44,790 nucleotides of DNA. Source: Candidatus Kapaibacterium sp. (GTDB lineage Bacteria; Bacteroidota; Ignavibacteria; Kapaibacteriales; UBA4661). This document shows, in pieces, positions 14,056 through 42,458 of the stretch. How positions within the stretch are numbered: position 1 is the stretch's first letter; each line of letters begins with the position of its first letter. The position numbers were made by a program, and so were the translations under genes. Location: positions 1 to 44,790 of the forward strand of contig JALONG010000052.1 of assembly GCA_025455065.1 (NCBI GenBank), given 5' to 3'. The notes below the pieces were generated by a model, which worked only from the letters and a program-made list of their open reading frames with translations, did not search any database and was not told where the DNA came from.

Positions 14056-14331
14056 AATGATGTTCTCCTAGAAAAAAACAATTATTAAAAGATGTTTTTC
14101 TGCAATCAGTAAATATGCGATTCAATATATGATATGTTGCAGAGCGATCGAAGGCAGAAAATACCGAAAAAAGAACAAAAACTGCTACCAAAAACTATAA
14201 GCCAAAAACACTCAAAAAAATGATCCGACACGTAATAGTAGCAAATGTCTTGATTATTGGGATTTCTGAGAGCATCACCAATGAGAGCGGAATCAATAAT
14301 CATGAATGAATCAAAAAAGTCTTTGCAGAAA
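14056..14331. other. Spacer between the MFS gene and the SusC gene
   Basis: This holds the SusC 5-prime leader. Bases 14070-14102 can form an A/T-rich hairpin (AGAAAAAAACA with TGTTTTTCT) just before the AGGAG ribosome site. I found no gene, no CG-centred LacI-type palindrome and no heptamer repeat here. Confidence 0.4.
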
Positions 14332-15741: not shown

Positions 15742-15785
15742 CCATCAAAACCACTAACCAAAAACTATCAACCAGAAACCAACTG
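15742..15785 (-). repeat. Heptamer-repeat array, 3-prime end of the chemoreceptor gene
   Basis: Plus strand CATCAAAACCACTAACC and AAAAACTATCAACC cover the chemoreceptor stop. The last codons (LVSG) and the TGA itself are encoded by repeat words. Confidence 0.85.
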
Positions 15786-17654
15786 AAGCCGAAACTGCCC
15801 GCCAATACTCACAAGTTCATCGGATTGGCGACGGAGTTGCGTGGCGATATTTGCCAGTGAATACACCGCCTGAGAAGCCTCTTCCGCAGCAGCGCTTATG
15901 GAATGGGCATTGGTGATGACTTCTTTCAAAATGGCTGTTTCTTCATGGCTTGCATCATTGATATTTGAAACAAGATTTTGAATCGTTTTTGTGCCGTCAA
16001 TAACTGACATGAGCTTTGTTCCGGCTTGTTCTGCAAGGTGTACACCGTTTTTTATTTCATCGAATTGCGATTGCATCATTTGTACCGATTCGCTTGTTTC
16101 TTGCCGAATCGCGCCAATCATCTGGCTAATTTCCTTCGTTGCTTTTTGCGTACGCTCGGCAAGTTTGCGCACTTCATCGGCAACAACCGCAAAGCCTCGT
16201 CCTTGCTCACCTGCGCGTGCTGCTTCAATGGCAGCGTTTAATGCCAAAAGATTCGTTTGGTCAGCAATTTCTTCAATCGTCGTCAGAATTTCGCTAATGC
16301 GTACGCTTGATTCGCTCAGGCGTTGCACACGCTCGGTGGAAGCCTCCGAAAGTTGATACATTTTACGCAAACGTTTCAATGTTTGTTGGAGCATTTCGCC
16401 GCCGGAAGCCGCAACAATACTATTTTCCTCACTTATTTCCCGCGCCTTATGCGTGAGTCGGGTATTGCTATCGCTTGAAAACATCACGTGTTGGATAGCC
16501 CGAGTGAGTTCTGTTACTTGTGCGGCTTGCTCTTCAGCAGTGGCGGCGAATTGGTGAGAGGAGTCGTCTAAGAGCGAGGAAGTCTGCGAGGCAAGCACCG
16601 AAGCGTGAGAGATTTGCTCGACGGTGAGGCGAAGTTTATCAACAGTTTGATTGTATTCTCCGTACAATGCGTTAATATCACGGTCTGTATCATTCGGCAA
16701 TAACGCCGTTAGATTTCCACTGGCAAGATCGCGCATCACGAAAGACATTTTTTCAACGCTGGTGTGCAGGTGTTCACGCTGCTTTTCTGCGCCTAACCGC
16801 CTCTTTTCTGCTTCTCCGGCTAAGTGTTCTACTTCAATTTTTTTTTCCTCGACTCTATGGAGAGAGTCTCGAATTTTTTCAACCATGTCATCAAATGCCT
16901 TCGACAAAATGCCGATTTCGTCGGTCTGTTCAAGCCGAATCGCCGTGTGCATATTCCCGGAAGATACTCCTTCTGCGGCTTCCTGAATGCGGTGAATTGG
17001 TCGGGCAATAGCTCTTCCTAAAAGAAAAGCAAGTGCAATAACACTTGTAATGCTTACGAGTGAAATAATGCCGAGTACAATCGCAGATAGTCTAAAGTCA
17101 GCCTGAGCTTCTTTTTGATGAGTTTTTGCGCGTTCATTGTAAAACTGTGTAAGTACCGTCATTTCTGCTTGTACGGCAGTTTTAACTTCGTCGTTTTGCA
17201 ATTCTATTTGCATTGCTGCGGCTTCTACGCTCCCGGATTTTTTCAAAGAAATTATCTCGTCGCACAAAGTATGATATGTTGCCAAGCCTTTTTGTATGCG
17301 CTGCACAAGAGTTTTCGTACTGTCGGTGTCCATCAAAGGTTGGATTTCCGCCACAAATTTTTCAATGAATTCAAAATCCTCTGCGAGTTTCTTCATCGTC
17401 TTTTTGATTTCATCCTCGCTCCGCCAATGGGATACAATCTGGTATTCACGTTTCCGAATCTGCTCCAGTTTTGTATTCATTCGTTGAACTTTGTTCAAAA
17501 CAACAATGTCTTCACGTTGAAGCGTCTCCACACGAGTATTCATGCGCTTCAGAGCGAAAAAAGCCGCGATATTTGATGCAATAAAAATCACTATCACCAA
17601 ACTAAATGACAGCAAAATTTTTTGCGAAATTTTCAGATTTCTAAACCATTTCAT
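15768..17654 (-). CDS. Methyl-accepting chemotaxis protein
   Basis: This is a transmembrane chemoreceptor. With the ATG at 17654 it has 628 residues: TM1 about 13-35, a helical periplasmic four-helix-bundle-like sensor (36-188), TM2 190-213, HAMP 213-265, a second HAMP-like segment around 305-345 ([14 protein letters not shown]) and the coiled signalling domain with hairpin tip [20 protein letters not shown] plus [18 protein letters not shown] (465-502). The start is supported by GAGG 9 bases upstream. The longer frame would add a hydrophobic leader encoded by a repeat and is rejected. Its place between uronate transport genes suggests a receptor for pectin-derived or related acids (inference). 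The ligand is unknown. Confidence 0.93.
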
Positions 17655-17697
17655 AGCGATAACCTCTAACACACAAAAAACAAAAATCAAGAGAAAC

Positions 17698-17748
17698 AAA
17701 AAACCAAAAACGAGAAACAAAAAACCAAAAACTAACAACCAAAAACTA
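17698..17748 (-). repeat. Heptamer-repeat array, 3-prime arm of the lactate permease gene
   Basis: Plus strand words AAAAAACCAAAAACTAACAA and CCAAAAACTA run to the permease stop, with TAG embedded. More degenerate A-rich copies extend to about 17676. Confidence 0.85.
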
Positions 17749-19377
17749 CTTCCCAAGCACCATTCCCGAAAATGGTGGAATGTATGCTTGCAACATCACG
17801 AGCAGCCCCATCAGCAGTGCCAGCGCGATACTATGCCAAAACACATACCGCAGCGTTGCTGATTCCTGTCCTTCATTTCCCGTCGCCGCGCCCGCAACAA
17901 CGATACTTTGAATGTTTACCATTTTCCCCATCACACCGCCTGAACTATTTGCAGCCGCCATCAGAACCGCGCTCAAACCAAGCTGTTCTGCGGTGATGCG
18001 CTGAAGCGAACCGAAAAGGACATTGGCCGACGTGTCTGAACCGGTAATCATCACACCCAGCCAGCCGAGTATCGTTCCGAAAAGCGGATACCACCAGCCT
18101 GTTTGCGCAAACGCAAGACCTAATGCGGCATCCAAGCCAGCATAGCGTAACACCATTCCTAGCGCAAGAATCGTGGAAATCGTCAAAAGCGATAATTTTA
18201 CGAGGTGAAATGTTGCTTTATATTCTTGCCAAAGACCTCGAACACTATATCCCATGCGCCTTCCGGCGAATAGTGCTGCAAGTAAAATACCCGTTCCTGC
18301 GGTAGAAAGCCAATTCAGCGTGAATACGGCGTTCTCTAGTGTCGGCTTCAAAACAACAGGCGGGACGCGCTCTACAGCTTTATGCAAGTACGGAACTTCG
18401 ATTTTAACTGCCGTCCAAGCATCTAAAAAGCCCTTCACTTGAGGGATTCCCCAAAGAAACACCGTCAACGTGAGTATTATCCAAGGTTCCCACGCTTGAT
18501 AGTAGTTTTTGGTTGGTGGTTTTTGGTTGGTGGTTTTTGGTTGTTCGGTGTTACTTTTTTCTTGTTGTGATGCGGGTTTCCAGACTTTGAGAAAAAGAGT
18601 TACCGCAGCAATGGAAACAAGCGATGCGACAATATCCACCAGCCAAGGTCCGTGATAATTCGCCACCAAAAATTGCGGAACAGCAAACGAAATTCCGGCA
18701 ATAAAAATTGCGGGAAAAAGCTCACGAACCGCACCAAATCCCGCATACATCCACACAAGCCAAAACGGTACGAGCATCGAAAAAAATGGTAATTGCCGCC
18801 CCACCATCGCGCTTAAATCCATCATCGGCAGCCCCGTTACGCCCTGAAGCGCGACAATAGGCGTTCCGAGCGAACCAAACGCAACGGGAGCAGTATTAGC
18901 GAGCAGTGCAAGTCCGGCTGCCTGAATTGCCGGAAAACCAAGCCCAATCAGCATTGCAGAAGTAACTGCGACCGGTGCGCCAAACCCCGCCGCTCCTTCA
19001 AAAAATGCTCCGAAACAAAACGCCACAAGCAAGAGTTGAAGACGTTTATCGGCGGTTATTCCCGTGATACTTTCTTGCACAACGTTGAACAAACCGCTTT
19101 TTTCGGTGAGTTTGTACAAAAAAATCATGTTCAAAATCAGCCAACCTATCGGCAGAAAACCAAATGCCGCGCCGTAAAGAGCCGATGCAGCCGCCATCGG
19201 AAAAGGAAAACCAAAGACCAGCGTTGCAATCCCAACAGCAAGCGTTAATGCGGTCAGTGCGGCATGATGCGCTTTTCTGCGAAGAAAAATCATCGCCATC
19301 ATCACCACAAGCGGCAGCGCTGCTACGAGCGTTGAAAGGGCTTGGCTTTGAAGCGGGTTATAGGTTTGTTGCCACAT
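17746..19377 (-). CDS. lctP: L-lactate permease family transporter
   Basis: This is an LctP/LldP/GlcA-type permease of about 12-14 membrane helices. It shows [23 protein letters not shown], a typical family segment, and [19 protein letters not shown] plus [21 protein letters not shown] near the C-terminus. With the ATG at 19377 ([11 protein letters not shown], a usual LctP start) it has 543 residues, the normal size. Residues of about 278-291 in a loop between helices are a heptamer-repeat insertion ([14 protein letters not shown]). The substrate is lactate or glycolate in the family; here a role in handling fermentation or uronate products is conjecture. Confidence 0.92.
18505..18546 (-). 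repeat. Heptamer-repeat insert inside lctP
   Basis: Six 7-bp words (GGTTGGT, GGTTTTT, GGTTGTT) lie in frame and encode a hydrophilic stretch in an extramembrane loop of the permease. Length 42 is divisible by both 7 and 3. Confidence 0.9.
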
Positions 19378-21039: not shown

Positions 21040-22272
21040 TTACAATTCTACAATTTTCAATGTTTTGATGAAATCATTGTCAAGTTCTACACCCCACCCC
21101 GCCCCAAGCGGTATCGGCATCACACCATTTTTTACTTCCAATACAGGCGAAACGACGCTTTTCATATAATTGTCGGTCTGAAACTCCTGATGTTTGCTTG
21201 CGTTTGGGGTAATGGCAATCACGTGGAGCATCACGGCGTGGTTATGCGCCACACGCGGACTGTGGGGTGAAATTTTCATACCTGCTTTTGCCGCCATTTG
21301 TGCAATCTTCAAAACCCGCAGAAAACCTCCGGCGTACATAACATCGGGCTGCACAATGTCCACAATGCGCTGCTCAATCATACGCCGAAACTGCGGCATA
21401 TTCGTGTCCTGCTCGCCGCCAGCAATCGGGAGTTTGCTTGCTGAAGTAATGCGCTTGGTGAGTTCAAATTCCCGAAATTCGCATGGCTCTTCCAAATGCG
21501 CAAAACCCACATCGTGAAGCCGTTTGCAGATATTCATTGCCTCGGAAAAATCATTAAATGAGCCATTTGCATCGGCGTAGAGCGTTGCCGAATCGCCCAA
21601 AGCCTTGCGAAAGGCGGGAATCATCGCCTCGTCGCGTCCCGAATTTCCCGCTTTCATACGCCCCCCAACCTTGATTTTAACAGCATTTGCGCCGTATTCC
21701 GCTAATTTCTTTTTCACATTTTCGATGTATTGCTCAGGCGCACTTTCGCGGTCAAACGTCGTAACATAAACGGGCGTTTCGCGGCGTAAAATCTCGCCAA
21801 ACAAGGCTGCAACAGGCTTCTGGGCAATCGTTCCGAGCAAACCGAGTATGGCATTTTCCACGTGTCCAACGCAATTCCAAAACGGCATTCCGCAAAATTT
21901 GTAATTGCTGCCCGCCCTGTACACGCCTTCTACCAAGGCTTCCACATCTCTGGCATCGTTGCCGATAAAAAACGGAGCGACCAAACCCAGCATCAAATCT
22001 CGCATGAGGAACATTCGGTTGTTCGCCGGCATCGTGTAAGGCGCATACCCTTTTGCCGAAACCCGCACAAAATAAGCCCGCTCAGGCTTCCAACCTTCAG
22101 CACGAAGCAGTTCAATCTTCTCAATGATGATTGGCTCTTTGAAGGTTGTTGGTAGTTTTTGGTTGGTGGTTGTTGGTTTTTGGTTGGTAGTTTTTGGTTG
22201 TTGATTGGCGAAGAGTTGTGGTGCGGAAATTCCTGCAACACCGCTTGAAATCAAGAATTGGCGGCGGTTCAT
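21040..22272 (-). CDS. Exported enolase-superfamily enzyme (mandelate racemase/muconate lactonizing type)
   Basis: The twin-arginine-like leader MNRRQFLISSGVAGISAP is followed by a repeat-encoded linker (about residues 22-43) and then the enolase-superfamily fold. Active-site candidates are K199-x-K201 (AVKIKVGG), metal ligands D234 (YADANGSF), E261/E262 (LEEPC) and E287 (GGEQ), and H337 (SPHSPR). A sugar-acid dehydratase or epimerase is possible, but the substrate cannot be assigned. Export of such enzymes is atypical for the classical members. Its ATG lies 6 bases from the stop of the preceding GH28 gene, so the two are probably co-translated. Confidence 0.82.
   Translation of the reverse strand: MNRRQFLISSGVAGISAPQLFANQQPKTTNQKPTTTNQKLPTTFKEPIIIEKIELLRAEGWKPERAYFVRVSAKGYAPYTMPANNRMFLMRDLMLGLVAPFFIGNDARDVEALVEGVYRAGSNYKFCGMPFWNCVGHVENAILGLLGTIAQKPVAALFGEILRRETPVYVTTFDRESAPEQYIENVKKKLAEYGANAVKIKVGGRMKAGNSGRDEAMIPAFRKALGDSATLYADANGSFNDFSEAMNICKRLHDVGFAHLEEPCEFREFELTKRITSASKLPIAGGEQDTNMPQFRRMIEQRIVDIVQPDVMYAGGFLRVLKIAQMAAKAGMKISPHSPRVAHNHAVMLHVIAITPNASKHQEFQTDNYMKSVVSPVLEVKNGVMPIPLGAGWGVELDNDFIKTLKIVEL
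22144..22206 (-). repeat. Heptamer-repeat insert after the signal peptide of the enolase-superfamily gene
   Basis: Nine 7-bp words (GGTTGTT, GGTAGTT-type and GGTTTTT) encode [20 protein letters not shown], directly after the Tat-like leader and before the first strand of the enzyme. Confidence 0.9.
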
Positions 22273-22277
22273 GGGTG

Positions 22278-22315
22278 CTAGTTTTTGGTTTTTAGTTGCT
22301 GGTTTTTGGGTTTGG
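22278..22315 (-). repeat. Heptamer-repeat array shared by a GH28 C-terminus and the next gene leader
   Basis: This is the 5-prime arm of the enolase-superfamily gene. It also encodes the last residues (PKPKNQQLKTKN) of the upstream GH28 protein, whose TAG stop is formed by the repeat CTAG context. Confidence 0.88.
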
Positions 22316-23750
22316 GACGGAAAACTTCTGTGTCGGATTTTACGTCGTTGAGCATGATATTTTTTGCAAATACATCCTCTGCAAACGTGATGTCATGTGG
22401 CTTTCCAGCTTGTTTAATGTCAATATCTTCCATAAAAATTCGCCGAATTGGTTCACCCTCCACGCCGGTAATTTTTATGCCTGTTTGCTCCACAAAGCCG
22501 CATGAAATCTTGCTTGCATAAACATCACTCATGCGCGTTGTGAAGAGGTTTCCACGCCACGAATGATAATCGGTCGTGAAGACAAACACGCCTTTTTTGC
22601 ACGTGTCCATCGTGATATTTCGCAAGAAAATTTGTTCGATAAAGCCGCCTCGGTCGCGGTTGCACTTGAATTGAATGCCGTGCGCAGCGCGTGAAATCGT
22701 GCAGTTCTCCACAAACACATTCCGCACACCGCCCGACATCTCGCTGCCAATGCAAAAGCCGCTTCCCACGCCGCTTCGGAAGGTGCAGTTTCGCACAATC
22801 ACGTTTTCCGTGCCGGGCGATTTCCACGCATCTTGGTCGCGCCCCGCCTTGATTGCAATGCAATCGTCATCGGTACTGATGGTGCAACGTTCAATGAGGA
22901 CATCCTTGCAGGACTCAGGATCTATGCCGTCGTCGTTGGTCGTGCCGTGTTCGATGGTGAGATTGCGAAAGGTTGCATTCGTGCAAAACACCGGATGCAC
23001 CGTCCAGAAAGGGCTTCCCTTCAGCGTTACGCCTTCAACAAGGATATTTCGGCAACCGTGAAATTGCACCAAATCGGGGCGCAAAAAATGTCCTTCGCCG
23101 AAGATTCTTTGTGCGGGTGGCACAGAATCTGGCGAATTGCCCAGCCTGCGCAGCGTGGTTTTATCAGGCTCTTGGAGTTTTTTCCACGTGTGCCAAAATT
23201 TTTCCGTTTGCCCGTCCAATGTGCCTTCACCGGAAATGGCGATATTGCTTGCGTTCAGGGCATAGACAAGTGGCGAAAAATTCATACACCGCGTTCCTTC
23301 CCAGCGCACCAACACAAGCGGTAGATAGTCCGCAGGGGGTACCGAAAACCGTAATGCCGCGCCGCGCTCTAAATGCAAATTCACGCCGGAGCGCAGACGC
23401 AGTGCGCCTTTCACGAAATACTCACCCGCCGGAACAACCACACGCCCACCACCTTGTTTCGCACAATCCTCAATCGCGGCTTGCAGAGCGGGTTTTGCGT
23501 CTGCCGTAGAATCCAGCACCGAAGCGGCTTTCACGCCATAGCTCGTAACAAGAAAATCCCGTTTTGGAAATGTCGGTGCTTTGATGCGGGAGAGGATGGT
23601 TTTTAGTTTTTGGTTGTTGGTTTTTGGTTGTTGGTTGGTAGTTTTTAGTTTTTGGTTGCTGGTTTTTGGTTGTTGGAATGCGTGAATTTGTGCGGCTTGT
23701 AGTAGCATAATTACTACGATAACACTATATTTGCTTGATATAAATTTCAT
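22278..23750 (-). CDS. GH28 polygalacturonase-like glycosidase
   Basis: This is a right-handed parallel beta-helix protein of family GH28, likely releasing galacturonate or another uronate from pectin in the periplasm or at the surface. A Sec signal peptide (to about residue 24 from the ATG at 23750) is followed at once by a repeat-encoded linker and then FLVTSYGVKAASVLDSTADAK. GH28 motifs are NDDGID (variant of NTDG), STDDDCIAIKAG and GSGFCIGSEMSGG. The usual GHG histidine is absent, replaced by glycine or serine, and the last motif is HGIQFKCNRDRGG rather than RIK. So catalysis may differ from classical endo-polygalacturonase. The C-terminus is also repeat-encoded. The start at 23750 is chosen by the hydrophobic leader. 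Confidence 0.87.
   Translation of the reverse strand: MKFISSKYSVIVVIMLLQAAQIHAFQQPKTSNQKLKTTNQQPKTNNQKLKTILSRIKAPTFPKRDFLVTSYGVKAASVLDSTADAKPALQAAIEDCAKQGGGRVVVPAGEYFVKGALRLRSGVNLHLERGAALRFSVPPADYLPLVLVRWEGTRCMNFSPLVYALNASNIAISGEGTLDGQTEKFWHTWKKLQEPDKTTLRRLGNSPDSVPPAQRIFGEGHFLRPDLVQFHGCRNILVEGVTLKGSPFWTVHPVFCTNATFRNLTIEHGTTNDDGIDPESCKDVLIERCTISTDDDCIAIKAGRDQDAWKSPGTENVIVRNCTFRSGVGSGFCIGSEMSGGVRNVFVENCTISRAAHGIQFKCNRDRGGFIEQIFLRNITMDTCKKGVFVFTTDYHSWRGNLFTTRMSDVYASKISCGFVEQTGIKITGVEGEPIRRIFMEDIDIKQAGKPHDITFAEDVFAKNIMLNDVKSDTEVFRPKPKNQQLKTKN
23597..23677 (-). repeat. Heptamer-repeat insert after the GH28 signal peptide
   Basis: About eleven 7-bp words encode the N/Q/K/T linker ([19 protein letters not shown] and on) between the signal peptide and the catalytic domain of the GH28 protein. 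Confidence 0.92.
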
Positions 23751-23764
23751 GGAGAATGACAACA

Positions 23765-24022
23765 ATGGAAATAAATTCGTTTGCCTTTGAAATACCGCAA
23801 ATAACCTCGTTGCGTTTTACAAAAACCGCAATTATTCTCTATCTCAAGGATGGGCGCACATTGACCGCCCCGCTTTCACGATTTCCTGCAATTCAACAAC
23901 TCACCCCACAACAACGCCGTAAATACAACATCTCCGGCGGCATTGCCCTTGATTTCGACGATGCTCAAGAAGTGTATCACATCTCGGATTTTCTCGGTCG
24001 AACCAACACAAACGGTCTCTAA
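23765..24022 (+). CDS. Small DUF2442-like protein
   Basis: This 85-residue protein (MEINSFAFEIPQ) has the DUF2442 pattern: a short beta hairpin, LKDGRTLTAPLSRFPAIQQLTPQQR and then NISGGIALDFDDAQEVYHISDFLG. Members often accompany a DUF4160 partner in putative toxin-antitoxin pairs, but no partner is present here. GGAG spaced 10 bases before the ATG at 23765 favours that start over the ATG at 23756. It is transcribed opposite to its neighbours, diverging from the GH28 gene with 14 bases between starts and converging on the GH2 gene, so it looks like an insertion into the locus. Confidence 0.75.
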   Translation: MEINSFAFEIPQITSLRFTKTAIILYLKDGRTLTAPLSRFPAIQQLTPQQRRKYNISGGIALDFDDAQEVYHISDFLGRTNTNGL

Positions 24023-24023
24023 T

Positions 24024-24055
24024 CCAAAAACTAAAAACCACCAACCAAAAACCTA
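24024..24055 (-). repeat. Heptamer-repeat array, 3-prime arm of the GH2 gene
   Basis: Plus strand CCAAAAACTAAAAACCACC and CAACCAAAAACC end at the GH2 stop; TAG is the first triplet of the sense repeat TAGGTTTTTGG. It fills the gap between convergent genes. Confidence 0.88.
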
Positions 24056-26845
24056 CTTCTCATCCGTATTTCGTTGTGCTTCTTGTGATTTTCCTGTTTT
24101 GCTTCCTGTACCGCTAATAGCCCATAGTTCAATCGCGTCCGAAGCTGTTTCACCGTGTTTGGTCGCAACGGCTTTGAGCGTCGTCCAGCCTTCGGAAATG
24201 CCCATAGACCAGACAAAACCTTGCTTGCGGGACTTTTTACCAAGCGAAACATCGCCTGCAAAGAGTTCTACTTCATCACCATTCGAGAAAACCTCGATAG
24301 ATGCTTGCGTTGAGGCTATTGTGTAGCCGCGTCGTCCGTTCCAATTTGCGTGAATGTGCGCCATCGGTTTGTCCTGTGTGCCGCGCAACCACTGGCTTTG
24401 GTAGAAGCGATAGACCGATTTCGGCTTGCGGTCAAAAGTCATCATTCCTTTTTGATTGATGTGCGGAATGTTGCCGATTTTGGCAAAACTGGCAAAATCA
24501 AACATATTCCAAAGTGTTCCTCCCGCCACGAATGGTGCGGCTTCGATGGCTTTCCAATAGGCTTTGTGGAAATCAATTTGATAGCTTTCGGAATGGTCAA
24601 AAATTGCGGGATTCGTGGTGAAATAATCGTTTTTCCCTTCCGCACCGTATTCACTCACAAGCACCTTCCACGTAGGATATTTGCTGTGTTCGCGCTCTAA
24701 TTCATGCCCGATGTCGCTGTATTTTCCTTCGTACCAACCGAAGTACCGATTGCGCCCTTGCACGTCGGTAAGCGGCATAATTCGGTCATCGGCGAGGTCG
24801 TTTTGTGCTTGAATTGTCGGGCGCGAGGGGTCTAAATCCTTTGCCGTTTTTTCCAATTCCCGCGTGATTTTAAGCGCCCATTCGGTGTCTTCGCTGTTGA
24901 AAAAATTACGATAATACTCGTTTCCAACGCCCCAAACCACGATACTTGCGTGGTTGTAATCGCGGGTAATCATCTCTTTCATCTGCTTTTTTGCATTGTT
25001 CAAAAACGCCTCGCGCCCAATCGTGTTCACCACCGGAATTTCCGCCCAAACAATCAACCCCAGCGAATCACAAAGGTCGAGAACGTAGGGATGATGCGGG
25101 TAGTGAGACAATCGCACGTAGTTTGCACCCATTTGCTTGATAAGCACAAAATCCTCGCGCTTCCTTGAAGAATCTACCGCCCAGCCTTTGCCGTAAAAAT
25201 CCTGATGCACGTTCACACCGCGCAGTTTCACGGTTTTTCCATTCAAAGCAAAGCCGGAATCCGCATGAAACCTGTACGAGCGCACACCAAACTTCCACGA
25301 GTTTTGGTCAATAAACGCACCCGTAGAATCGAACAAACTAAACTGCGCCGTGTACTGATGCGGTGTTTCAGGCGACCACAAATACGGTTGGGTTAGAGTT
25401 ATTAGTTTTTGATTGTTGGTTTTTGTTGGTTGATTGCCATTGCCGACGACAAATTCTTTTTGTTCGCTGGAGGCGAGAAACACGGTATCATGCGCTGTGT
25501 GGACGATTTCGCCCATTGGATTCAGGATATTTGTTTGCAAACGCACCGTTTTTCCTGCGGCTGCTTTGGAACGCAAAACGGCTGTAACGCTCACCATTGC
25601 TTGGTTTGGAGTTACGCTCGGCGTAAAAATTCGCGGTGTTTTGACAAAATGCTGTTCCCAAATAAGTACGTGAACATCGCGGTACAAGCCGCCTTGAAAG
25701 TTGTAATCGGCTGTATGCGGCGCAATATCGTAGTTGTAGCGATTGTCCACGCGCACGGCAAGAACGTTCGGTTTGTCGAAATTCACAAACTGCTTCACGC
25801 CTTCTTCTCCGGCATCAAAAGCATGAATAGCCCAGTGAAAATCCGTGTAGCCGCCTTTGTGCTTGCCCAAATACTTGCCGTTCAGCCACACATCGGCAAC
25901 TTGATTCGCGCCCAAAAAGTTGATTTTAATGTACTTGTTTTTGTACGCCGAAGGCACGGTAAACGTGGTGCGATACCATCCAAACCCGCGCCGATACATC
26001 TCCGAAATGTCGAGAGAATCTTTGATGCCACGCTCATCGAAGGTATCATGCGCATTCCACGTGTGCGGCACGGAAACCGCTTCCCAGCTTGCATCGTTGA
26101 ACTTCGGTGTTTCGGCGTTTTTGAGTTCCAGCGTGTCTTTCACAAATTTGAATTTCCAGCCCGTTTTAAGCGGAATCTCTACACGCGAGGATTCACGCGG
26201 CTTCCAGACGACGTTAGTGTATTCTTTGGGCGGAATAACGATGTGAACAAACTTCGCTTCGTTTTCGCCCATGTCGTAGGTGAGTTCGCGGTTTACGCCA
26301 AACTGCTCGGCGCGAAGTTGGACGCGAACACGTTGTTTTATCGGGCTTACAAGCAGCATGAATACTTCATTTTCGACAACTTGTTTGCGCTGAAAAGCAA
26401 CGTGATAGCAGTTCGAGGCAATTTTGCTCGTAATGTCTTCCTCGAAATTGCGCCGCCTGCCGCTTGTTTTCAAGCCTTTGATGTCGGTCGCCGTCCACGA
26501 ATCATAGCTGAAAAGGTTGATAGTACGCCCTTTGTACGGCACATTCATCAGCGCAAACCACGAGTATTCGCGGTAGTTCGGGTAAAAATCTGCGCTTTTT
26601 TCCGTCGGACGAAAACCCAAGAGCGATTGCGCTTCGGCAGATTCGACGGTTTTGTCTGAAAGCCGCATATTTTCTTGCTTGGAAGGCGTAAGCATCATTT
26701 GTTTTGTGCCTTGCAAACCGCCTAATTTCAGGTCTTGTGCGGTGAGTTGCTGGGTTAGTAGCAATAACAGAAAGAATAATTGACCGCAGAGGCGCAGAGG
26801 CGCAGAGAAGAGTATTTGTGCGGCTTTTAGAGCAATATGATTCAT
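24053..26845 (-). CDS. GH2 family glycosidase (beta-galactosidase-like), exported
   Basis: This is a 930-residue exported enzyme with a Sec signal peptide ending in QQLTAQ. From about residue 223 it shows the GH2 order: jelly-roll sugar-binding domain (TGWKFKFVKD, VSVPHTWNAHD, FQGGLYRDV), an immunoglobulin-like domain and a TIM barrel. The acid/base is E643 in GVGNEYYR and the nucleophile E732 in LVSEYGAEG. An additional N-terminal region of about 180 residues precedes the GH2 part and is unrecognised. Residues 470-484 are a heptamer-repeat insert. A beta-galactosidase or beta-glucuronidase acting on pectic side chains would fit the neighbours. The ATG at 26845 is used; the longer frame begins with TTG. 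Confidence 0.87.
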   Translation of the reverse strand: MNHIALKAAQILFSAPLRLCGQLFFLLLLLTQQLTAQDLKLGGLQGTKQMMLTPSKQENMRLSDKTVESAEAQSLLGFRPTEKSADFYPNYREYSWFALMNVPYKGRTINLFSYDSWTATDIKGLKTSGRRRNFEEDITSKIASNCYHVAFQRKQVVENEVFMLLVSPIKQRVRVQLRAEQFGVNRELTYDMGENEAKFVHIVIPPKEYTNVVWKPRESSRVEIPLKTGWKFKFVKDTLELKNAETPKFNDASWEAVSVPHTWNAHDTFDERGIKDSLDISEMYRRGFGWYRTTFTVPSAYKNKYIKINFLGANQVADVWLNGKYLGKHKGGYTDFHWAIHAFDAGEEGVKQFVNFDKPNVLAVRVDNRYNYDIAPHTADYNFQGGLYRDVHVLIWEQHFVKTPRIFTPSVTPNQAMVSVTAVLRSKAAAGKTVRLQTNILNPMGEIVHTAHDTVFLASSEQKEFVVGNGNQPTKTNNQKLITLTQPYLWSPETPHQYTAQFSLFDSTGAFIDQNSWKFGVRSYRFHADSGFALNGKTVKLRGVNVHQDFYGKGWAVDSSRKREDFVLIKQMGANYVRLSHYPHHPYVLDLCDSLGLIVWAEIPVVNTIGREAFLNNAKKQMKEMITRDYNHASIVVWGVGNEYYRNFFNSEDTEWALKITRELEKTAKDLDPSRPTIQAQNDLADDRIMPLTDVQGRNRYFGWYEGKYSDIGHELEREHSKYPTWKVLVSEYGAEGKNDYFTTNPAIFDHSESYQIDFHKAYWKAIEAAPFVAGGTLWNMFDFASFAKIGNIPHINQKGMMTFDRKPKSVYRFYQSQWLRGTQDKPMAHIHANWNGRRGYTIASTQASIEVFSNGDEVELFAGDVSLGKKSRKQGFVWSMGISEGWTTLKAVATKHGETASDAIELWAISGTGSKTGKSQEAQRNTDEK
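25394..25438 (-). repeat. Heptamer-repeat insert inside the GH2 gene
   Basis: In frame, it encodes NQPTKTNNQKLITLT in the middle of the protein between the immunoglobulin-like strands and the QPYLWSP segment. It is partly degenerate. Confidence 0.82.
26779..26811. repeat. Dispersed CCGCAGAGGCGCAGAG repeat, copy 2
   Basis: This copy lies inside the signal-peptide region of the GH2 gene and encodes its APLRLCGQ residues. GACCGCAGAGGCGC (26782-26795) is the exact inverse of 26895-26908. Confidence 0.8.
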
Positions 26846-26888: not shown

Positions 26889-26916
26889 ACCTCCGCGCCT
26901 CTGCGGTCATTTCTCT
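26889..26916. repeat. Dispersed CCGCAGAGGCGC repeat, copy 3 (inverted)
   Basis: GCGCCTCTGCGGTC (26895-26908) forms a perfect 14-bp inverted pair with copy 2, and the GH2 start codon lies between them. Confidence 0.8.
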
Positions 26917-26927
26917 TTTTCTGATGA

Positions 26928-28442
26928 TTATTTCTTCTTCCAAACAATCTCTTTCGCGCCGGAAAGCTCATTATTCCTTGCTTGCACGGCTTTGGGCAAC
27001 ATTTCGCTACATTCCAAAAGCGCAGGTGCGTTTGTCCAAAGTTCGGCATTATTCACGCGAAACAAATTACTCTTCGAGGCAGTAATGACGGGCTTTTTGA
27101 GGGAAACACCCGCAAGTTTTTGCGCCTCGACCACAAAACCCGTTGCAGAAAAACTTGCCGCTCCGATGCTTGAAATCATGCTTTTCTCATTCGCCGTCGA
27201 GTCCATAAGCCGCACACGGACGTTTTCCATTTGGATTTTGTCAGCATATCCAAGCGCAATGAGCGCGGGAGCGTTGGCAAAATCAGCATTTCCGATGCGG
27301 CTTTCGTACTTGTAATTGCGGTTCCCTTTCGGTTTGCGGGCTTTCGTCATAGCCGCACAGTTCCTTGCTTCCAGCGTGATATTCCGAAGCGAAATGGAGG
27401 TGATATTTTTGTCAGGATGCCCTGAAATCAAGATTTTACCTTGTGTTCGGGCGGAGATGTCGTGAAAACTCAGATTTTCCATTGTTCCCAAAGCAAACGA
27501 CGAATCTTTGCGGTCTAAATCCACAAAAATCGGATAATCGTAAGGATGCCGCGAACCGCCGTCAATACTGATGTTCTGGAAGGTGATGTTGCGGTGCGTG
27601 CCGCCTTCAATCATAAACAGCGCAATGCCGTAGCGCGTGTTGCGAATGCTGCAATTCGAGAAAATGCAATTTTGCATCACACCAAGCGAACCTGTTCCCA
27701 GCTTCAACGCCGCATCGTCACTTTCAATCACGCAATTCGAGACGAGGATATTTTCTACGCGCCCACCTTGTCCTTTCAGGCAAATTCCATCGTCGCCCGT
27801 AGAAATGAGGCAATTACTGATGCGGACGTGGGAGCAATCGCTAATATCGAATCCGTCCGTGTTGGGGACACGAGGGTCGTTGTAAAGTGTTACATTGTCA
27901 ATGGTTACATCAGAACAAGAATCCAAAAAACACGTGTGCGAAGGAGAATTGATAAGCCGCACATCGCGTAATTGCACACGCGAACAGCTCACAAAGCGCA
28001 GCCAATGAACGGGGCGCTCCGGAAGCGGCTCATAATCAAGCGTGTCGCCCTTCCAAAAGCCCTTGCCCTGACCATCTATCGTTCCCTGCCCGATAATGGC
28101 GATATTGCTTGCCGCGTGAGCATAGAGGAGATGTCGGCGATTGTCGCGGGGTTCGGTCGAATAATCGTTGATATTGTCGCTGCCCAGCAAAACCGCACCG
28201 TTACTGAGTTCGAGCGTGATATTACTTCTCAAGTTCAGCGTTCCCGTCAAAAATGTTCCTGCCGGAAACAGCACCGTTCCACCGCCTTGTTTGGCACAAG
28301 AATCAATCGCGGCTTGCAAAGCGCGTGTATTCAGGGTTTTGCCGTCGCCGATTGCTCCAAAGCGCGTTACATCAAGCGTCTGCGCTTCCAATCCAAGCGC
28401 CCAACAACTAAAAACCAACAACCAACAACTAAAAACCCTCAT
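26928..28442 (-). CDS. GH28-family beta-helix glycosidase, divergent
   Basis: This 504-residue exported beta-helix protein has the GH28 start LDVTRFGAIGDGKTLNTRAL, motif NTDGFD (194-199) and STGDDGICLKG (214-224). The position of the GHG motif is taken by SDDAALKLGT (241-250), so the usual histidine is missing; substrate and activity may depart from polygalacturonase (for example rhamnogalacturonan or xylogalacturonan). The start ATG overlaps the stop of the upstream ADP-ribosylglycohydrolase-family gene (ATGA), giving translational coupling. Its signal peptide (VFSCWLLVFSCW core) is encoded by the G/T-rich strand of a heptamer-repeat array, and cleavage is likely after GLEA. Confidence 0.86.
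   Translation of the reverse strand: MRVFSCWLLVFSCWALGLEAQTLDVTRFGAIGDGKTLNTRALQAAIDSCAKQGGGTVLFPAGTFLTGTLNLRSNITLELSNGAVLLGSDNINDYSTEPRDNRRHLLYAHAASNIAIIGQGTIDGQGKGFWKGDTLDYEPLPERPVHWLRFVSCSRVQLRDVRLINSPSHTCFLDSCSDVTIDNVTLYNDPRVPNTDGFDISDCSHVRISNCLISTGDDGICLKGQGGRVENILVSNCVIESDDAALKLGTGSLGVMQNCIFSNCSIRNTRYGIALFMIEGGTHRNITFQNISIDGGSRHPYDYPIFVDLDRKDSSFALGTMENLSFHDISARTQGKILISGHPDKNITSISLRNITLEARNCAAMTKARKPKGNRNYKYESRIGNADFANAPALIALGYADKIQMENVRVRLMDSTANEKSMISSIGAASFSATGFVVEAQKLAGVSLKKPVITASKSNLFRVNNAELWTNAPALLECSEMLPKAVQARNNELSGAKEIVWKKK
28400..28440 (-). repeat. Heptamer-repeat array used as signal-peptide coding sequence
   Basis: This is the 3-prime arm of the upstream gene. Its sense strand (GTTTTTAGTTGTTGG words) is translated as FSCWLLVFSCW, the hydrophobic core of the GH28 signal peptide. 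Confidence 0.9.
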
Positions 28443-29707
28443 AAAACCTCCGCGCGTTTTGCAAGACGCTCAACGTCTTTTTGGTGAATAGATTGAACGA
28501 CGGTGAGAAACTCACGTGCTGTTTGTGAATAATTACGTTTGTTTGCAGCATCCACGCCACTTCGGAGCGATTCGGGGACGATGCTCGTGCCTTTAATTGC
28601 AGCAAGAATGCTTGTGGCTACCGCCGCGATTGATTCCGCATCACGCCCGTAGAAGAGGCTTGCTTTCAGGGTTTTCATGTAATCGCCATTGCCGTATTTG
28701 AGCGCGGCAAGAGCAATCGGCACATTTTCCACGCAAGCAATCCGCGACGGACGACCAATGTTAGTGCGGTCTCGGAGCATTTTTGGTGTGTCGTTGGGTG
28801 CAGTTCCGTCGAGAATATTTTTGAGTTGTTTCGGCGAAAGCTGCAAGTACGGAAGCACCGCGAGTCGCGCCTTGCGGATAAATTCGTCCTGCGAATCGCT
28901 TGTTTTCACGCTGGAAAGTACATCTTCCAGCGCAAGCCGCGTACCATCTTTCGCAACCCTCAAAGCCGCATCCAGAGCCGCATCGAGAGTACCATCTTTT
29001 TGAAATGCGACAGAATATGCCGCCGCATTCACGCCTGCGCCTTCCAACGCAAACGATTCCGTGTGCGCCGCACCAAAGCTCGTTACTTCGTCGTAAGCAC
29101 GCCAAGGGTCGCCGACGTTCACCGCACCCACCGGCAGCACAATTCCTTGAAAGCCCTCATTTAGCCAATTCCCAACGCCCGCCGTGCGCGGTTCGGCATT
29201 ATTGACGGCGTTGCGCTGATACACGTAGCGTTCAGGATACCAGAGCGGACGGTCATTTGGCGGCATTTCCGCGCCTTTTTCGGCAATCCAAACCTTCTTT
29301 TCAGTGATTTCTTTCACGAACAAATCCGCGTAATCGTAAGCGTCCAAATGGTCTTGGTGGCGAGTGTACACGCCAAGTAGCGCCTCAAGATTGAGCGTGT
29401 CGTCGGTAGTGCGCCCGTCGCCTTTGCCGGGTTCTTTTTTGTTGGGTTTAGTTGGAGGCAAAAAGCGCGTAAAATCGTGGTTTGCGAAGTCTGCTTTGGT
29501 TTGTTCGGGCAGATTATTTTCAATCGAACCGCCCATTGCATCGGCTACAACAAAGGCGTAGAGCGCACCGGAGAGTTTATCGGCGAGCAAGGGTGCTGTG
29601 CGTTGTTGCAGTTCACTTGCTTTTGCATCATGTGCCTGTAAGCTATGTGTGAAGCGGCTTGCAAGGAATGAACCAAGCGCTAATCCAAAAAAATTACGGC
29701 GTTTCAT
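28439..29707 (-). CDS. Exported ADP-ribosylglycohydrolase-family protein
   Basis: The ATG at 29707 gives 422 residues with a Tat-like leader, MKRRNFFGLALGSFLASRF. The ADP-ribosylglycohydrolase (DraG/ARH) fold is indicated by GALYAFVVADAMGG (47-60), the metal-binding GRTTDDT (98-104), the later aspartate-rich and GAGVNAAAYSVAF helices, and IAAVATSILAAIKG. Known family members remove ADP-ribose from proteins or small molecules inside cells; here the leader and the carbohydrate neighbours suggest that it acts outside the cytoplasm on a glycoside, but that is inference. It overlaps the downstream GH28 gene by 4 bases and follows an enolase-superfamily gene. Confidence 0.78.
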   Translation of the reverse strand: MKRRNFFGLALGSFLASRFTHSLQAHDAKASELQQRTAPLLADKLSGALYAFVVADAMGGSIENNLPEQTKADFANHDFTRFLPPTKPNKKEPGKGDGRTTDDTLNLEALLGVYTRHQDHLDAYDYADLFVKEITEKKVWIAEKGAEMPPNDRPLWYPERYVYQRNAVNNAEPRTAGVGNWLNEGFQGIVLPVGAVNVGDPWRAYDEVTSFGAAHTESFALEGAGVNAAAYSVAFQKDGTLDAALDAALRVAKDGTRLALEDVLSSVKTSDSQDEFIRKARLAVLPYLQLSPKQLKNILDGTAPNDTPKMLRDRTNIGRPSRIACVENVPIALAALKYGNGDYMKTLKASLFYGRDAESIAAVATSILAAIKGTSIVPESLRSGVDAANKRNYSQTAREFLTVVQSIHQKDVERLAKRAEVL

Positions 29708-29741
29708 TTTTGGTTTTTGGTTTGTCGTTTTGGTTTTTTTT
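29708..29741 (-). repeat. Heptamer-repeat array, 5-prime arm of the ADP-ribosylglycohydrolase-family gene
   Basis: A short, partly degenerate array (TTTTTGGTTTTTGG, then TCGTTTTGG) lies next to the ATG at 29707, with the C-rich strand in sense. Confidence 0.7.
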
Positions 29742-35190: not shown

Positions 35191-35946
35191 TCAAAATCCA
35201 ATCGAATTTCCACCGTCCACAGGCAGATTCACACCCGTAACGTATTTCGCGGCATCAGAAGCAAGATATACTGCGGCATAGCCAATATCGGACGCTTCTC
35301 CAAGCCTTCCCATCGGTGTTCTGCCCATAACCTTTGCTTTGCGTTCTGCATCGGAATCAAGTGCTTTGCGGAGCATTGGTGAATCAATAAATCCCGGCGC
35401 AATAGCATTGACGCGGATTCCGTGCGGAGAAAGATCGCTTGCTAAAATGCGCGTCATGCCCAGAACTGCGGTTTTTGATGCCCCGTAAGCTGCAACTTTG
35501 GAAAGACCGTACATTGCTGCCATTGAGGTAATCATAATAATTGAACCATTCTTGCGTTCCGTCATACCCCGTGCCACTTCTCGCGTTAGAGCAAAAACTG
35601 CGTTGAGATTCGTTTGAATAATGCGGTTAAATTCTTCATCGGTGAGGTCGAGGGCGTGTTTTTTCAGATTGATTCCGGCGTTATTTACCAAAATATCTAT
35701 CGCGCCATGCTCTGCTTCAATGCTACGCACAAGTTCCGGCAACCCCGGAAGATTGCTGACATCATTCACAACAAATGCAGCATTTACGCCAAGTTCACCA
35801 ACTGCTTCCTTCAAAACCTCTTCACGCCGCCCGGTAATGACAACCTTTGCTCCTGCTTCCAAAAAGGCTTTTGCTATGCCGAGACCAAGCCCTGTGCCGC
35901 CTCCAGTGATAAGTGCGAGTTTATTTTCGAGTGAAAAAGGGGTCAT
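35191..35946 (-). CDS. Short-chain dehydrogenase/reductase, probable sugar-acid oxidoreductase
   Basis: This is a classical SDR of 251 residues: cofactor motif TGGGTGLG (14-21), NNAG (88-91), catalytic S141, Y154 and K158 (YGASK), and the family tail [12 protein letters not shown]. It resembles gluconate 5-dehydrogenase/KduD-type enzymes. Next to manD, and in a locus without a UxuB gene, it may reduce D-fructuronate to D-mannonate; the alternative is a KduD or gluconate oxidoreductase role. The start lies next to a long heptamer array and no Shine-Dalgarno is present. Confidence 0.85.
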
Positions 35947-36070
35947 TGGTGGTTTTTAGTTTTTGGTTGGTGGTTTTTGGTTGGTAGTTCGTAGTTTTTG
36001 GTTTTTAGTTTTTAGTTGGTGGTTTTAGTTGGTAGTTGGTAGTTGGTGGTTGGTGGTTGGTGGGTAATGG
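35947..36070 (-). repeat. Heptamer-repeat array, 5-prime arm of the SDR gene (longest)
   Basis: About sixteen words of the RGTTKKT type begin at the base beside the ATG: GGTTTTT, AGTTTTT, GGTTGGT and AGTTGGT, ending in a GGTTGGT-rich tract. It is inverted relative to 36081-36136. Confidence 0.92.
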
Positions 36071-36080
36071 TTGTAAAAAA

Positions 36081-36136
36081 GAAACCAAAAACCAGAAACC
36101 AAAAGCTAAAAACCAAAAACCATCAACCAAAAACTA
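36081..36136 (-). repeat. Heptamer-repeat array, 3-prime arm of the TonB receptor gene
   Basis: Plus strand GAAACCAAAAACCAGAAACC and on to CATCAACCAAAAACTA run to the receptor stop, where TAG is part of the sense repeat TAGTTTTTGGTTG. Only 10 bases separate it from the inverted array at 35947-36070. Confidence 0.92.
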
Positions 36137-39031
36137 AAGAGTATAAGACACACCGAAACGCATAGACCAGCCATAGAATTCGACGTTGGAAATGCGGCTA
36201 CGGAGTCCGAAAAATTCAAGACGCGGCTGATTGAGGAGGTTCAAGAACTCAGCATAGAGGCGGTATTTGTCGAATCGGTAGGAGGTGTTTACGTCTAATT
36301 GCCAGCGTTCTTCGGCATATTCATCGCGCTGCCCGTCGGGACCAATGTTGAGAATAAATCGCCCGTTGTAATTGAGCGAACCTTTCACCGCAAAACCGCC
36401 AATGTCATACGAAAGCGCGAAATTGCCTGAGTGCGGCGACTGCCCCGGAAACGAGATATTCTGCCGTGTTTGCGTAAATGCTGCGGATTGAGTAAACGTG
36501 TAATTTGCATACACGCCCAAACCATTGAAGGGGAACGGCAGAAAATCAAGGTTTGCCTGCACATTAACTTCAGCACCAAGCACCGATGCTACTTCGCCGT
36601 TATCGTAGGTGGTAAAGCGCACACGGTCGCTCGCCAAGCCGTCAATGCCAAACTGTTCTGCCGGAACAAAATCTATTTTCGTGTAAATAAATCGGTCAAT
36701 GCGTTTGTAGAAAAATCCACCCGAAACAATCCCCACATTTGGCAAAAAGTATTCTGCCAAAAGGTCAGCATTCATCGCACCGGAAGGACGAACATTGGGA
36801 TTACCGCGAGTAACGGTCAAGCCTTCGGGGTTAATATCCTCAATCGGGACGTATTGGTTAAAATCAGGACGTGCATAGCTAAAGGTCAGCGCACCGCGCA
36901 AATTCAGGAGTTCCGTAGGGCTGTATTTCACGTGAACGCTTGGCAAAACGAAGGTGTAGTTAGCTGCTTCGTCGCGGCGCGAGGTACTAAGCCACCTGTC
37001 GCCCGTTGCGCGAACTTGATTCGCAGCATTTGCCAACTGCGTATGCTCCACACGCACACCACCCAAAAACATCCATTTATCCACCAAAAGCCGCGTCATT
37101 GCGTAGCCGGAAAGCACCGTTTCATTTGCATCCCAGAAATATGGGTCGGAAATGCGACGCATACCGTTGGAATCAGGCAGGAAGCGGTCGCGGTTGTTGC
37201 GATTTGCCTCAAAATACTCCCGCATACGAATATGATCAACCGTCGGACCAATGCGGAGTTGGCGATTGTAAAAGCGAATATCTTCGTAGTTATCGCGGAA
37301 ACGGGCAAAAAATTCATTTTCGTCCGGTGCGCCAACGAAGTTGTAATCAATGTTCATACGGTTGCGAGCATTGTTTAGCGAACGAGCTTTGATGCCTGTT
37401 TTGAAGACACCGAAGTAATCACCGATTTGATAGTTCAACGTTGCGTTAATTCTTGCAACAACATTTCGTCCTGCATTGCGAATATTATCATCGGCATAGC
37501 TCTGGAAATCGTTGTAGGTAAGCGGGTTGTAGATGTCGCGCACCGTTGCAACAGCTTTGGGCAAATCAGTGTACAAACCACGAATTTCCATATCAATATC
37601 GCGGGCATTGAAGTTAATGCGAGGAAATATGCGCTCTGCACGGTTCACCGTTACGAAAGCCCCATAATCAATGAGCCAAGCACCAGTGCGGGATTCACCC
37701 GTTAGCGAGATATTGAGGTTGTCGCGTTGAATAATGCGATTCGAGGTTTGAATTTGCATCCGCCCCAAGCGAGAAAATTCGGGCGTTACAAAGGTTCCGC
37801 TATTCGGTCGAAAGCGTAGAACTCGGCGTACATCCTCGTCGTTGATGTTGCTGTACTGCACATCAAAAATGAGGTTTGAGGTATTGTTAAATTTGTAATC
37901 CAGCGTGATTCCCGCACCAATGCGCCGACGCTGCGTTGTTTGGTCGCGGTAACGGTAATCATTCATCACAAAAACACTGTCGCCGCTGCGATGTGGTTGA
38001 AATTTTGGATCGGCAATAACGCTTGGCGCAAAGCGGCGAAAGCCCCAATCAGTAACCTCAATGCGGTCTTCACCGATATTTGCTGAATAAAACGTAAAGT
38101 CCGTGCGCACACCCAAACGCCCGTCTTCGACTTCGTTATCTTCAAAAAAGCGTTGATTCCAGCCGACTTTGCCAATACCCGTAAATCCGCCAATAAGGTT
38201 GTTGTAACCACCGCCCAACTCCGCTTTAATTTTGGGTTTTAAGCTCTTCGCCATCGGTGTCCGTAAATTGACCGAACCGCCGATTGCGTCGCCGTCTTGG
38301 TCGGGTGTGAGTGCTTTGGTAATTTCCATCGAAGCAAGCAAATCCACCGGAATAAGGTCGAGCGACGCACCGCGACTGCCTTGCTCTTCCGTGCTGACAA
38401 GCTGTTCACCATTCATATTCACCGTCGTAAATGCAAACGGCGTTCCGCGTAGCTGCACACGATTACCTTCGCCGCGATTTCGCTCAATTTGTACGCCCGG
38501 AACACGCTGCAACGCCTCGCCGATATTCAAATCGGGAAAACGGCTGATGAGGTCTGCCGAAACGATATTTTTGATATTGTCCGCCGTGCGCTGCTGATTG
38601 AGCGCCTTTTGCTGCCCTTCCAAGTTTGCCGACACGACAACTTCATCGGTCAGAACAGCCATCGGTTTCATGGTGAAATTTTTTATCGTGAGTTCACCCA
38701 CTTTCACTGTCAGCGTAAGTTCTGCTTTCTCAAACCCCAGATAGGAAGCCGTTAGCGTAGCCTCCCCGACAGCAACGTTACGGATGTAATACTCGCCTTT
38801 GGTGTTGGAGACAGCACCGTTATTTGTTCCTTTTACCACAATACTCACGCCTGCAAGCGGGTCGCCGGAGAGTTTATCGGTGATTTTTCCTTTGATTTCG
38901 CCGGAAGCCCAAAGCAGATTTGAACAAGCAAATACACTGATGATTGTTACCAAAAACACGTATTTATGCGCTACGTGTTTATGTGCTAGAAATGTGCTGC
39001 GCAGAGCGAAACGGAGGTAAGAGAGATTCAT
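36134..39031 (-). CDS. TonB-dependent receptor with carboxypeptidase-regulatory-like domain
   Basis: This outer-membrane receptor has 965 residues from the ATG at 39031 (the longer frame opens with GTG). It has a signal peptide ending about SNLLWAS, a carboxypeptidase-regulatory-like domain (EIKGKITDKLSGDPLAGVSI), a link with MAVLTDEVVVSANLEGQ, a plug with FPDLNIGEALQRVPGVQIER and TPDQDGDAIGGSVNLRTP, and a large beta-barrel ending in WSMRFGVSYTL. No SusD partner lies nearby; this type is like the oligosaccharide receptors of the TIGR01782 class. The 354-base divergent spacer to the LacI-type gene holds two operators, so it is probably repressed by that regulator until an inducer from pectin appears. 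Confidence 0.9.
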   Translation of the reverse strand: MNLSYLRFALRSTFLAHKHVAHKYVFLVTIISVFACSNLLWASGEIKGKITDKLSGDPLAGVSIVVKGTNNGAVSNTKGEYYIRNVAVGEATLTASYLGFEKAELTLTVKVGELTIKNFTMKPMAVLTDEVVVSANLEGQQKALNQQRTADNIKNIVSADLISRFPDLNIGEALQRVPGVQIERNRGEGNRVQLRGTPFAFTTVNMNGEQLVSTEEQGSRGASLDLIPVDLLASMEITKALTPDQDGDAIGGSVNLRTPMAKSLKPKIKAELGGGYNNLIGGFTGIGKVGWNQRFFEDNEVEDGRLGVRTDFTFYSANIGEDRIEVTDWGFRRFAPSVIADPKFQPHRSGDSVFVMNDYRYRDQTTQRRRIGAGITLDYKFNNTSNLIFDVQYSNINDEDVRRVLRFRPNSGTFVTPEFSRLGRMQIQTSNRIIQRDNLNISLTGESRTGAWLIDYGAFVTVNRAERIFPRINFNARDIDMEIRGLYTDLPKAVATVRDIYNPLTYNDFQSYADDNIRNAGRNVVARINATLNYQIGDYFGVFKTGIKARSLNNARNRMNIDYNFVGAPDENEFFARFRDNYEDIRFYNRQLRIGPTVDHIRMREYFEANRNNRDRFLPDSNGMRRISDPYFWDANETVLSGYAMTRLLVDKWMFLGGVRVEHTQLANAANQVRATGDRWLSTSRRDEAANYTFVLPSVHVKYSPTELLNLRGALTFSYARPDFNQYVPIEDINPEGLTVTRGNPNVRPSGAMNADLLAEYFLPNVGIVSGGFFYKRIDRFIYTKIDFVPAEQFGIDGLASDRVRFTTYDNGEVASVLGAEVNVQANLDFLPFPFNGLGVYANYTFTQSAAFTQTRQNISFPGQSPHSGNFALSYDIGGFAVKGSLNYNGRFILNIGPDGQRDEYAEERWQLDVNTSYRFDKYRLYAEFLNLLNQPRLEFFGLRSRISNVEFYGWSMRFGVSYTL

Positions 39032-42230: not shown

Positions 42231-42458
42231 TTTTCGGTAAATTCTGCCTAATCTTCGGTGAACGTTGCCTCATCTTCGGTAAATTCTGCCTAATCTTCGG
42301 CGAATGCTGCCTCGTCTTCGGTGTATCGTTGCCTCATCTTCGGTAAATTTTGCCTCATCTTCGGCGAATTGTATTCCGTTTCCGACAAATGTGGTCCTGT
42401 CTCCGACATATCGTAGTCCCGTTTCCGACAAATTCTGCCTTGTCTCCGACGTGTCTTC
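42231..42458. repeat. Degenerate 21-bp minisatellite
   Basis: Eleven units of about 21 bp (two are 22 bp), based on TCTTCGGTAAATTCTGCCTA, decay towards TTTCCGACAAATTCTGCC at the right end. On the minus strand units read as heptapeptides such as AEFTEDE, but some carry TAG and others break the frame. Confidence 0.9.

Follow-up and report, generated by a model that had tools for sequence, protein, structure and literature searches.

The question raised by this locus is whether a simple tandem repeat codes for the export signal of an enzyme and, if so, whether the repeat family does this as a rule. The window (the whole stretch of DNA that was analysed, 44,790 nt) carries arrays of a heptad, RGTTKKT on one strand and AMMAACY on the other, which were counted at a score of at least 16. 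One of them lies at the junction of two genes on the minus strand. The features of this junction are as follows.

26928-28442, minus: GH28-like gene, 504 aa, PF00295.
28383-28442, minus: predicted signal peptide of 20 residues (MR, repeat-coded core, ALGLEA).
28401-28437, minus: heptad array GGTTTTTAGTTGTTGGTTGTTGGTTTTTAGTTGTTGG, GH28 codons 3-14 (VFSCWLLVFSCW); also the 3′ GT-arm of the upstream gene.
28439-28442, minus: ATGA overlap between the GH28 ATG (28442-28440) and the stop codon TGA of the upstream gene (28441-28439).
28447-28451, minus: Shine-Dalgarno-like motif GGAGG, 4 nt 5′ of the GH28 ATG.
28439-29707, minus: ADP-ribosylglycohydrolase-family gene, PF03747; its C-terminus is at about the same place as that of the orthologue from genome G165.
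29707-29739, plus: heptad array ending at the ADP-ribosylglycohydrolase start codon (AC-arm on the coding strand).

The 37 nt of the array match RGTTKKT perfectly and are in frame with the GH28-like gene. The longest perfect run was 16, both in 200 Markov shuffles of 26900-28500 and across the 825 other genes called in the genome sample. The protein, a putative pectin-degrading enzyme, matches Glyco_hydro_28 (PF00295) with 111 bits (cut-off 22.9). Its N-terminus, MRVFSCWLLVFSCWALGLEAQTLDVTRFGAIGDG, is laid out as MR-VFSCWLLVFSCW-ALGLEA/QTLDVTRFGAIGDG, the slash marking a predicted cleavage site. Features of a Sec-type signal peptide are present: R2, an uncharged run of 16 residues, a small residue at -1. 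The net charge is +1 and the top 10-residue hydropathy is 2.16, i.e. the 70th percentile among 722 genes of the same genome; an uncharged run as long as this one is found in 12.7% of the genes of that genome. Cleavage would occur at A20/Q21, with A20 at -1 and an unusual L18 at -3, or at G17/L18, after A15-L16-G17. That the ATG overlaps the upstream stop and opens a repeat-coded hydrophobic leader had been proposed in the initial annotation and was found at these positions. The leader text given there, ALG then GLEAQ, holds as a leader, but one G was counted twice (ALGLEA/Q). The 3′ arm after the ADP-ribosylglycohydrolase gene is thereby confirmed, from sequence features, as coding for the hydrophobic core of the predicted GH28 export leader.

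Arrays of this family are not scattered at random. The window has 25 arrays with a score of at least 16; none was found in 5 Markov shuffles. Ten of its 11 minus arrays, and one plus array next to a plus gene, begin -15 to +2 nt from a stop codon of the same strand, a range reached by 103 of 20,000 random positions; the exception in the window is a weak minus array (14187-14209). TAG accounts for 7 of the 11 stops at arrays versus 107 of 803 genes in the genome sample, an excess due to the use of the array's own TAG as stop. For strong arrays outside the window, an ORF starts within -2 to 5 nt on the AC side in 14 of 31 cases and on the GT side in 0 of 31 (random positions: 19/620). For 80 named loci, the corresponding counts of ORF starts beside arrays are 18/130 and 4/130 (random: 74/2600). 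The rule is thus that a GT-rich arm starts from a stop codon and an AC-rich arm runs up to a start codon. The GH28 array follows the stop rule and, since the ATGA junction leaves no spacer, a GT-arm that starts at the stop is translated in the GH28-like gene.

What the array stands in for is indicated by two genomes, G115 and G165, that carry the orthologous pectin/galacturonate locus (L324-L327; identities: uxaC 67%, uxaA 62-64%, MR2 76%, MR3 78%, GH28 43%). No RGTTKKT array with a score of at least 16 was found in 100 kb from G115, G165 and G086. The orthologous GH28 leaders, MKRHLLIVCIALGCAPLMSDALA/Q and MNLRQTAFCVFICCFFAPTLSA/Q, are unrelated in sequence to the repeat and have 22-23 aa versus 20 here; all meet at A/Q, with an equivalent start. 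GH28 homologues in the phylum have ordinary leaders with ends near the same point. The top 10-residue hydropathy of three GH28 orthologues (3.10, 2.92 and 2.27) is in each case above that of the repeat-coded leader. On the simplest reading, the repeat would have taken over the core of the leader and left its ends, so that the leader was overwritten rather than created; with a GH28 identity of only 43%, this route is inferred from position and length and not from a near relative.

Segments elsewhere in the window give a similar picture. The UxaA array segment has 19 residues versus 22 and 19 native ones in the orthologues; in UxaA, MR1 and mtlD, array segments stand in for native segments of similar length. 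Replacement is not universal: arrays add residues to pfkB and GH2 relative to the orthologues. The array of the lactate permease is without an orthologue for comparison. The C-termini of uxaC, uxaA, pfkB, ARH and MR2 are near the ends of their orthologues, so the array-associated stops are close to the native place.

We consider it likely, from these comparisons, that the arrays of the window are an invasive or expanding repeat in low-constraint sequence, that the GH28 leader core was overwritten by it and that the enzyme is exported through the result. The heptad repeat would occupy stop-to-start junctions and, within genes, linkers, loops and leader cores. A normal junction would hold a GT-arm from the stop of gene A and an AC-arm up to the ATG of gene B. 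At the spacer-less ADP-ribosylglycohydrolase/GH28 junction (ATGA), the GT-arm would necessarily be translated, as codons 3-14. It would have replaced the core of an old signal peptide, with the Shine-Dalgarno-like motif, ATG, n-region and ALGLEA/Q end kept. The array could substitute for such a core because two of its three frames are open, each of them hydrophobic. The enzyme would then use the general secretory route via the repeat-coded leader. If so, simple repeat DNA has here taken the place of a targeting signal, and the array-free orthologous loci allow a clear comparison of the states before and after.

Alternatively, the GH28-like gene may start downstream (TTG 28391 or other), which would leave the enzyme intracellular and the array as leader RNA only. 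A codon-usage model by itself does prefer TTG 28391, 3′ of the repeat, as expected because repeat codons are odd, and arrays elsewhere in the same genome directly precede start codons. In those cases, however, it is the AC strand that faces the gene, as counted above, whereas the GT strand faces GH28. Moreover, GGAGG is present at the ATG (such motifs precede 62 of 695 sampled ATG genes versus 7 of 695 after shuffling) and no motif of this type was found ahead of the downstream TTG starts. Unrelated leaders in orthologues would have counted against the initial annotation had they shown the true start to be elsewhere; the leaders are indeed unrelated, but they are retained at the equivalent place. 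We regard a downstream start as unlikely. The TTG extension of the upstream ADP-ribosylglycohydrolase gene was also rejected, as an ORF artefact like the extension of the MCP gene (below).

The opposite strand of the repeat had been annotated as a source of N/Q/P/K/T linkers, and four such segments bear this out.

4690-4747, plus: antisense-read linker of UxaA, between SAF and the second domain; the orthologues have a native linker of similar length.
22144-22208, plus: antisense-read linker (21 residues) directly after the RR-type leader of the MR1 gene (21040-22272).
23597-23676, plus: antisense-read linker directly after the leader of the second GH28 gene (22278-23765).
25387-25436, plus: antisense-read loop in the GH2 protein, longer than in the orthologues.

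Antisense arrays do code for linkers. For the 75 arrays in 1.61 Mb of the same genome, mean hydropathy is positive in all 101 open sense frames (0.75 to 3.0) and negative in all 119 open antisense frames (-3.35 to -0.8). With strong arrays of this genome and of the named loci, 193 of 225 open sense frames and 0 of 241 antisense frames pass a test for a hydrophobic core. T versus A at the second codon position, hence the genetic code alone, is sufficient for this split; the orientation rule is true, but it is a consequence of the code and needs no dedicated function or adaptation. As the 7-nt unit rotates the frame, the same array can have two open frames on each strand. The case shows why T-rich repeats can become signal peptides, and their complements linkers.

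The data do not support a general provision of export signals by the family, as the initial annotation had it. The whole genome was scanned for an ATG running into a sense array, a pattern that misses degenerate arrays and GTG/TTG starts. It gave 35 matches, of which 30 were examined as loci; among these 30, GH28 alone opens a long gene-like frame, and the second longest frame has 56 aa. A weak array (score 17) at L237 (8492-8520) overlaps the hydrophobic core of a lipoprotein-like leader (...VALLLGLVWFVVGCGQN). Array scores of 16-19 are also scattered through the unbiased genome sample, so this one may be due to chance; L237 is a weak candidate for a second repeat-coded leader, or for convergence. 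Repeat-coded export is thus, in this genome, one clear case plus one weak candidate at chance level and not a family habit. Two other candidates were rejected. The hydrophobic array leader of the MCP gene (15768-17756) is an upstream extension only, an ORF artefact, since a 15-residue stretch of the protein sits downstream in frame. The array of L072 (10821-10856) lies, in the opposite reading, in a TonB-like protein with a leader and a repeat linker (read by eye).

These data bear on the view that the family is a kept module, with export signals in one direction and linkers in the other. The full separation of hydropathy by strand would fit it, as would the linkers that follow leaders, two in the window and one in L072. 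Given that GH28 is the sole clear export case among the 30 of 35 matches examined, that the L237 array scores 17 and that T-rich or A-rich codons explain the orientation effects, we give such a module little credence. No more credence is given to a lipoprotein signal that would anchor the enzyme at C13: compared with the lipobox pattern, L9-V10-F11-S12-C13 is only loosely similar, C13 leaves a very short leader, and ALGLEA/Q, with an A/Q junction common to the orthologues, favours ordinary signal peptidase I. That GH28 is a decaying gene with an accidental hydrophobic reading is the least probable alternative: the island is heavily repeat-loaded (5.6 arrays per 10 kb in the window versus 0.15 in the unbiased 1.14-Mb genome sample), but an open frame of 504 aa, a strong coding score (96) and a good Pfam match speak against decay.

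The pectin island was probably acquired. GH28 was not found in 40 relatives, and no genome of the same order or class was among the matches listed for UxaA at E 1e-60; these absences from the relatives searched argue for acquisition of the pectin island. A search of 41 relatives gave matches of the repeat pattern in the genome itself and one in a congener, and nowhere else; a backwards control pattern also matches the same genome (51 and 4), as such arrays look alike both ways. The region 537-41783 is a pectin/galacturonate utilisation island with two GH28 genes, UxaA, UxaC, SusC/SusD and genes of KDG kinase and aldolase types; it is rearranged, its gene order being shuffled relative to G115 and G165. 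Arms were considered as gene-shuffling joints and rejected: order differs from G165, yet the conserved pairs kdgA-pfkB and uxaA-uxaC also carry arrays, which are therefore not simple joint markers.

Elsewhere, arms occur in pairs. Two pairs of the window are predicted to form long RNA hairpins.

1662-1890, minus: paired arms between uxaC and mtlD; hairpin of -69.7 kcal/mol, z -7.4.
35946-36138, minus: nearest arm pair, 7 nt apart; hairpin of -54.5 kcal/mol, z -9.1.

Neighbouring array pairs at most 600 nt apart (67, from 99 sources) are ordered GT-then-AC in 50 cases, the reverse in 5 and on the same strand in 12. Arm pairs thus have terminal inverted repeats, as in MITEs; the GH28 array itself is without a partner arm, and the RNA fold of its region has a z of 0.6.

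Some pairs enclose a small ORF. The loop ORFs of L158 and L164 match PF05635 (hmmscan), the 23S rRNA intervening-sequence protein (IVP); that of L175 resembles them by look. No PF05635 gene was found between the arms of the window. The single one of this genome is on another contig (C20, L200), where it is flanked by inverted CTTGGTTA/CTTGGTT arrays; TTGGTCA inverted pairs also occur (L276, L278). No Rfam match was found in the window, nor a location in a 23S rRNA gene. Four-helix-bundle protein genes are present in 157 of the 198 genomes sampled. Thirty-one IVP loci (L200-L230) were compared: the best 30 of those returned when 198 genomes were searched, plus the one of this genome. In 17 of the 31, the match between one flank and the inverted copy of the other exceeds the 95th percentile of mismatched pairs; these 17 are not independent, several having the same neighbour genes. 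Period 7 reaches 0.413 in the flanks versus 0.26 in far flanks, and lag 8 is raised too (0.335). At 9 of the 17 loci, the arms span the upstream stop (-16 to +10 nt) to the downstream ATG (-7 to +16); at 4 more, they abut an ATG on the other side (random ends: 94/3100 and 232/3100). RGTTKKT arms as the usual ends of IVP loci were rejected, as weak matches were found in only 5 of 31 and the heptads differ; the link emerged only once any inverted heptad was allowed.

In the window, a GT-arm and an AC-arm, within 23597-24053, enclose a DUF2442 gene (23756-24022, plus; PF10387), an IVP-like layout. The loop 31834-32047 between two arms translates as HRQECLCY/AQTFLSVP-like text, which we take to be a spurious ORF product of palindromic repeats.

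The combination of inverted heptad arms and IVP genes suggests an IVS-like element between protein genes. A wider reading, possible but rather doubtful in our view, is that heptad arms and IVP/S23 genes form one widespread, undescribed class of intervening element in protein operons, made up of a GT-arm, an optional small ORF and an AC-arm. Such an element would fill the junction from stop to start, would be excised from mRNA as an RNase III stem like the 23S IVS and would spread by overwriting, not adding; the GH28 leader would be an arm at a spacer-less junction. No description of the IVP link and of the stop-to-start rule of inverted heptad arms was found in the literature searched, whose coverage leaves out many subscription papers. 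Both, if they hold, would say in a testable way what the 'four helix bundle protein' genes, very common in Bacteroidota-like genomes, are.

A published precedent is RU-2, a small mobile repeat that forms the predicted signal peptide of YPO1552 (Delihas 2007, PMC2759123). As with the GH28 array, a repeated intergenic element gives a predicted signal peptide and the leaders of the homologues are unrelated (for YPO1552, the predicted ones of homologues from other genera); RU-2, however, is a 168-bp element of unique sequence, whereas the GH28 array is a 7-nt tandem array with Shine-Dalgarno-like motif and ATG outside. TAACTGA heptamers of Bacteroidetes and Cyanobacteria are mostly intergenic, many of them just before start codons, a position shared with the arrays described here; some lie over stop codons or inside proteins at tolerated places, and horizontal spread was suggested (MacGregor 2015, PMC4679880). 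Their unit differs from RGTTKKT/AMMAACY, they include one indirect repeat in the main genome, whereas arms here pair as inverted repeats, and no mention of four-helix-bundle genes was found for them in the accessible text of that paper. Rickettsia palindromic elements are likewise inverted-repeat sequences in frame inside unrelated protein genes, but have about 150 bp and a conserved peptide instead of tandem heptads without a fixed peptide (PMC10969869). ORF tandem repeats of Borgs also yield disordered hydrophilic stretches, often in exported proteins, from units that are divisible by three, unlike the frame-rotating 7-nt units (PMC9879509).

The IVS of 23S rRNA have complementary ends around a PF05635-type ORF, as do the elements found here, and the stem of the Coxiella IVS is cut by RNase III; the present elements differ in sitting between protein genes with heptad arms (PMC4990558). 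By analogy, they may be excised or move in the manner of an IVS. PF05635 is homologous to Avd of diversity-generating retroelements (PMC10053308). Matches of the repeat strings themselves, in the literature text open to searching, were only in one paper on cotton and one on liver cancer. A predicted signal peptide supplied by a repeat is already known (RU-2); what is new is the leader made of tandem frame-rotating heptads, the spacer-less junction and the array-free orthologous loci.

The repeat extends beyond this genome. A 25-nt form of it is present in 98 stretches of the genome collection, of which 80 were listed; these are from Bacteroidota, Cyanobacteria, Deltaproteobacteria, Armatimonadota, Omnitrophota, Chloroflexi, Planctomycetes and others. 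Many carriers are metagenome bins, in which misbinning is possible, and isolates are found too (Hymenobacter, Cnuella, Polaribacter). Perfect heptad arrays of 99 nt lie at contig ends of the same genome (start of C22, end of C105; L070, L071), so that longer arrays probably interrupt the assembly, which makes the copy numbers too low. A different repeat, in tandem arrays of 21-22 nt, is found at 42233-42455, near the contig end.
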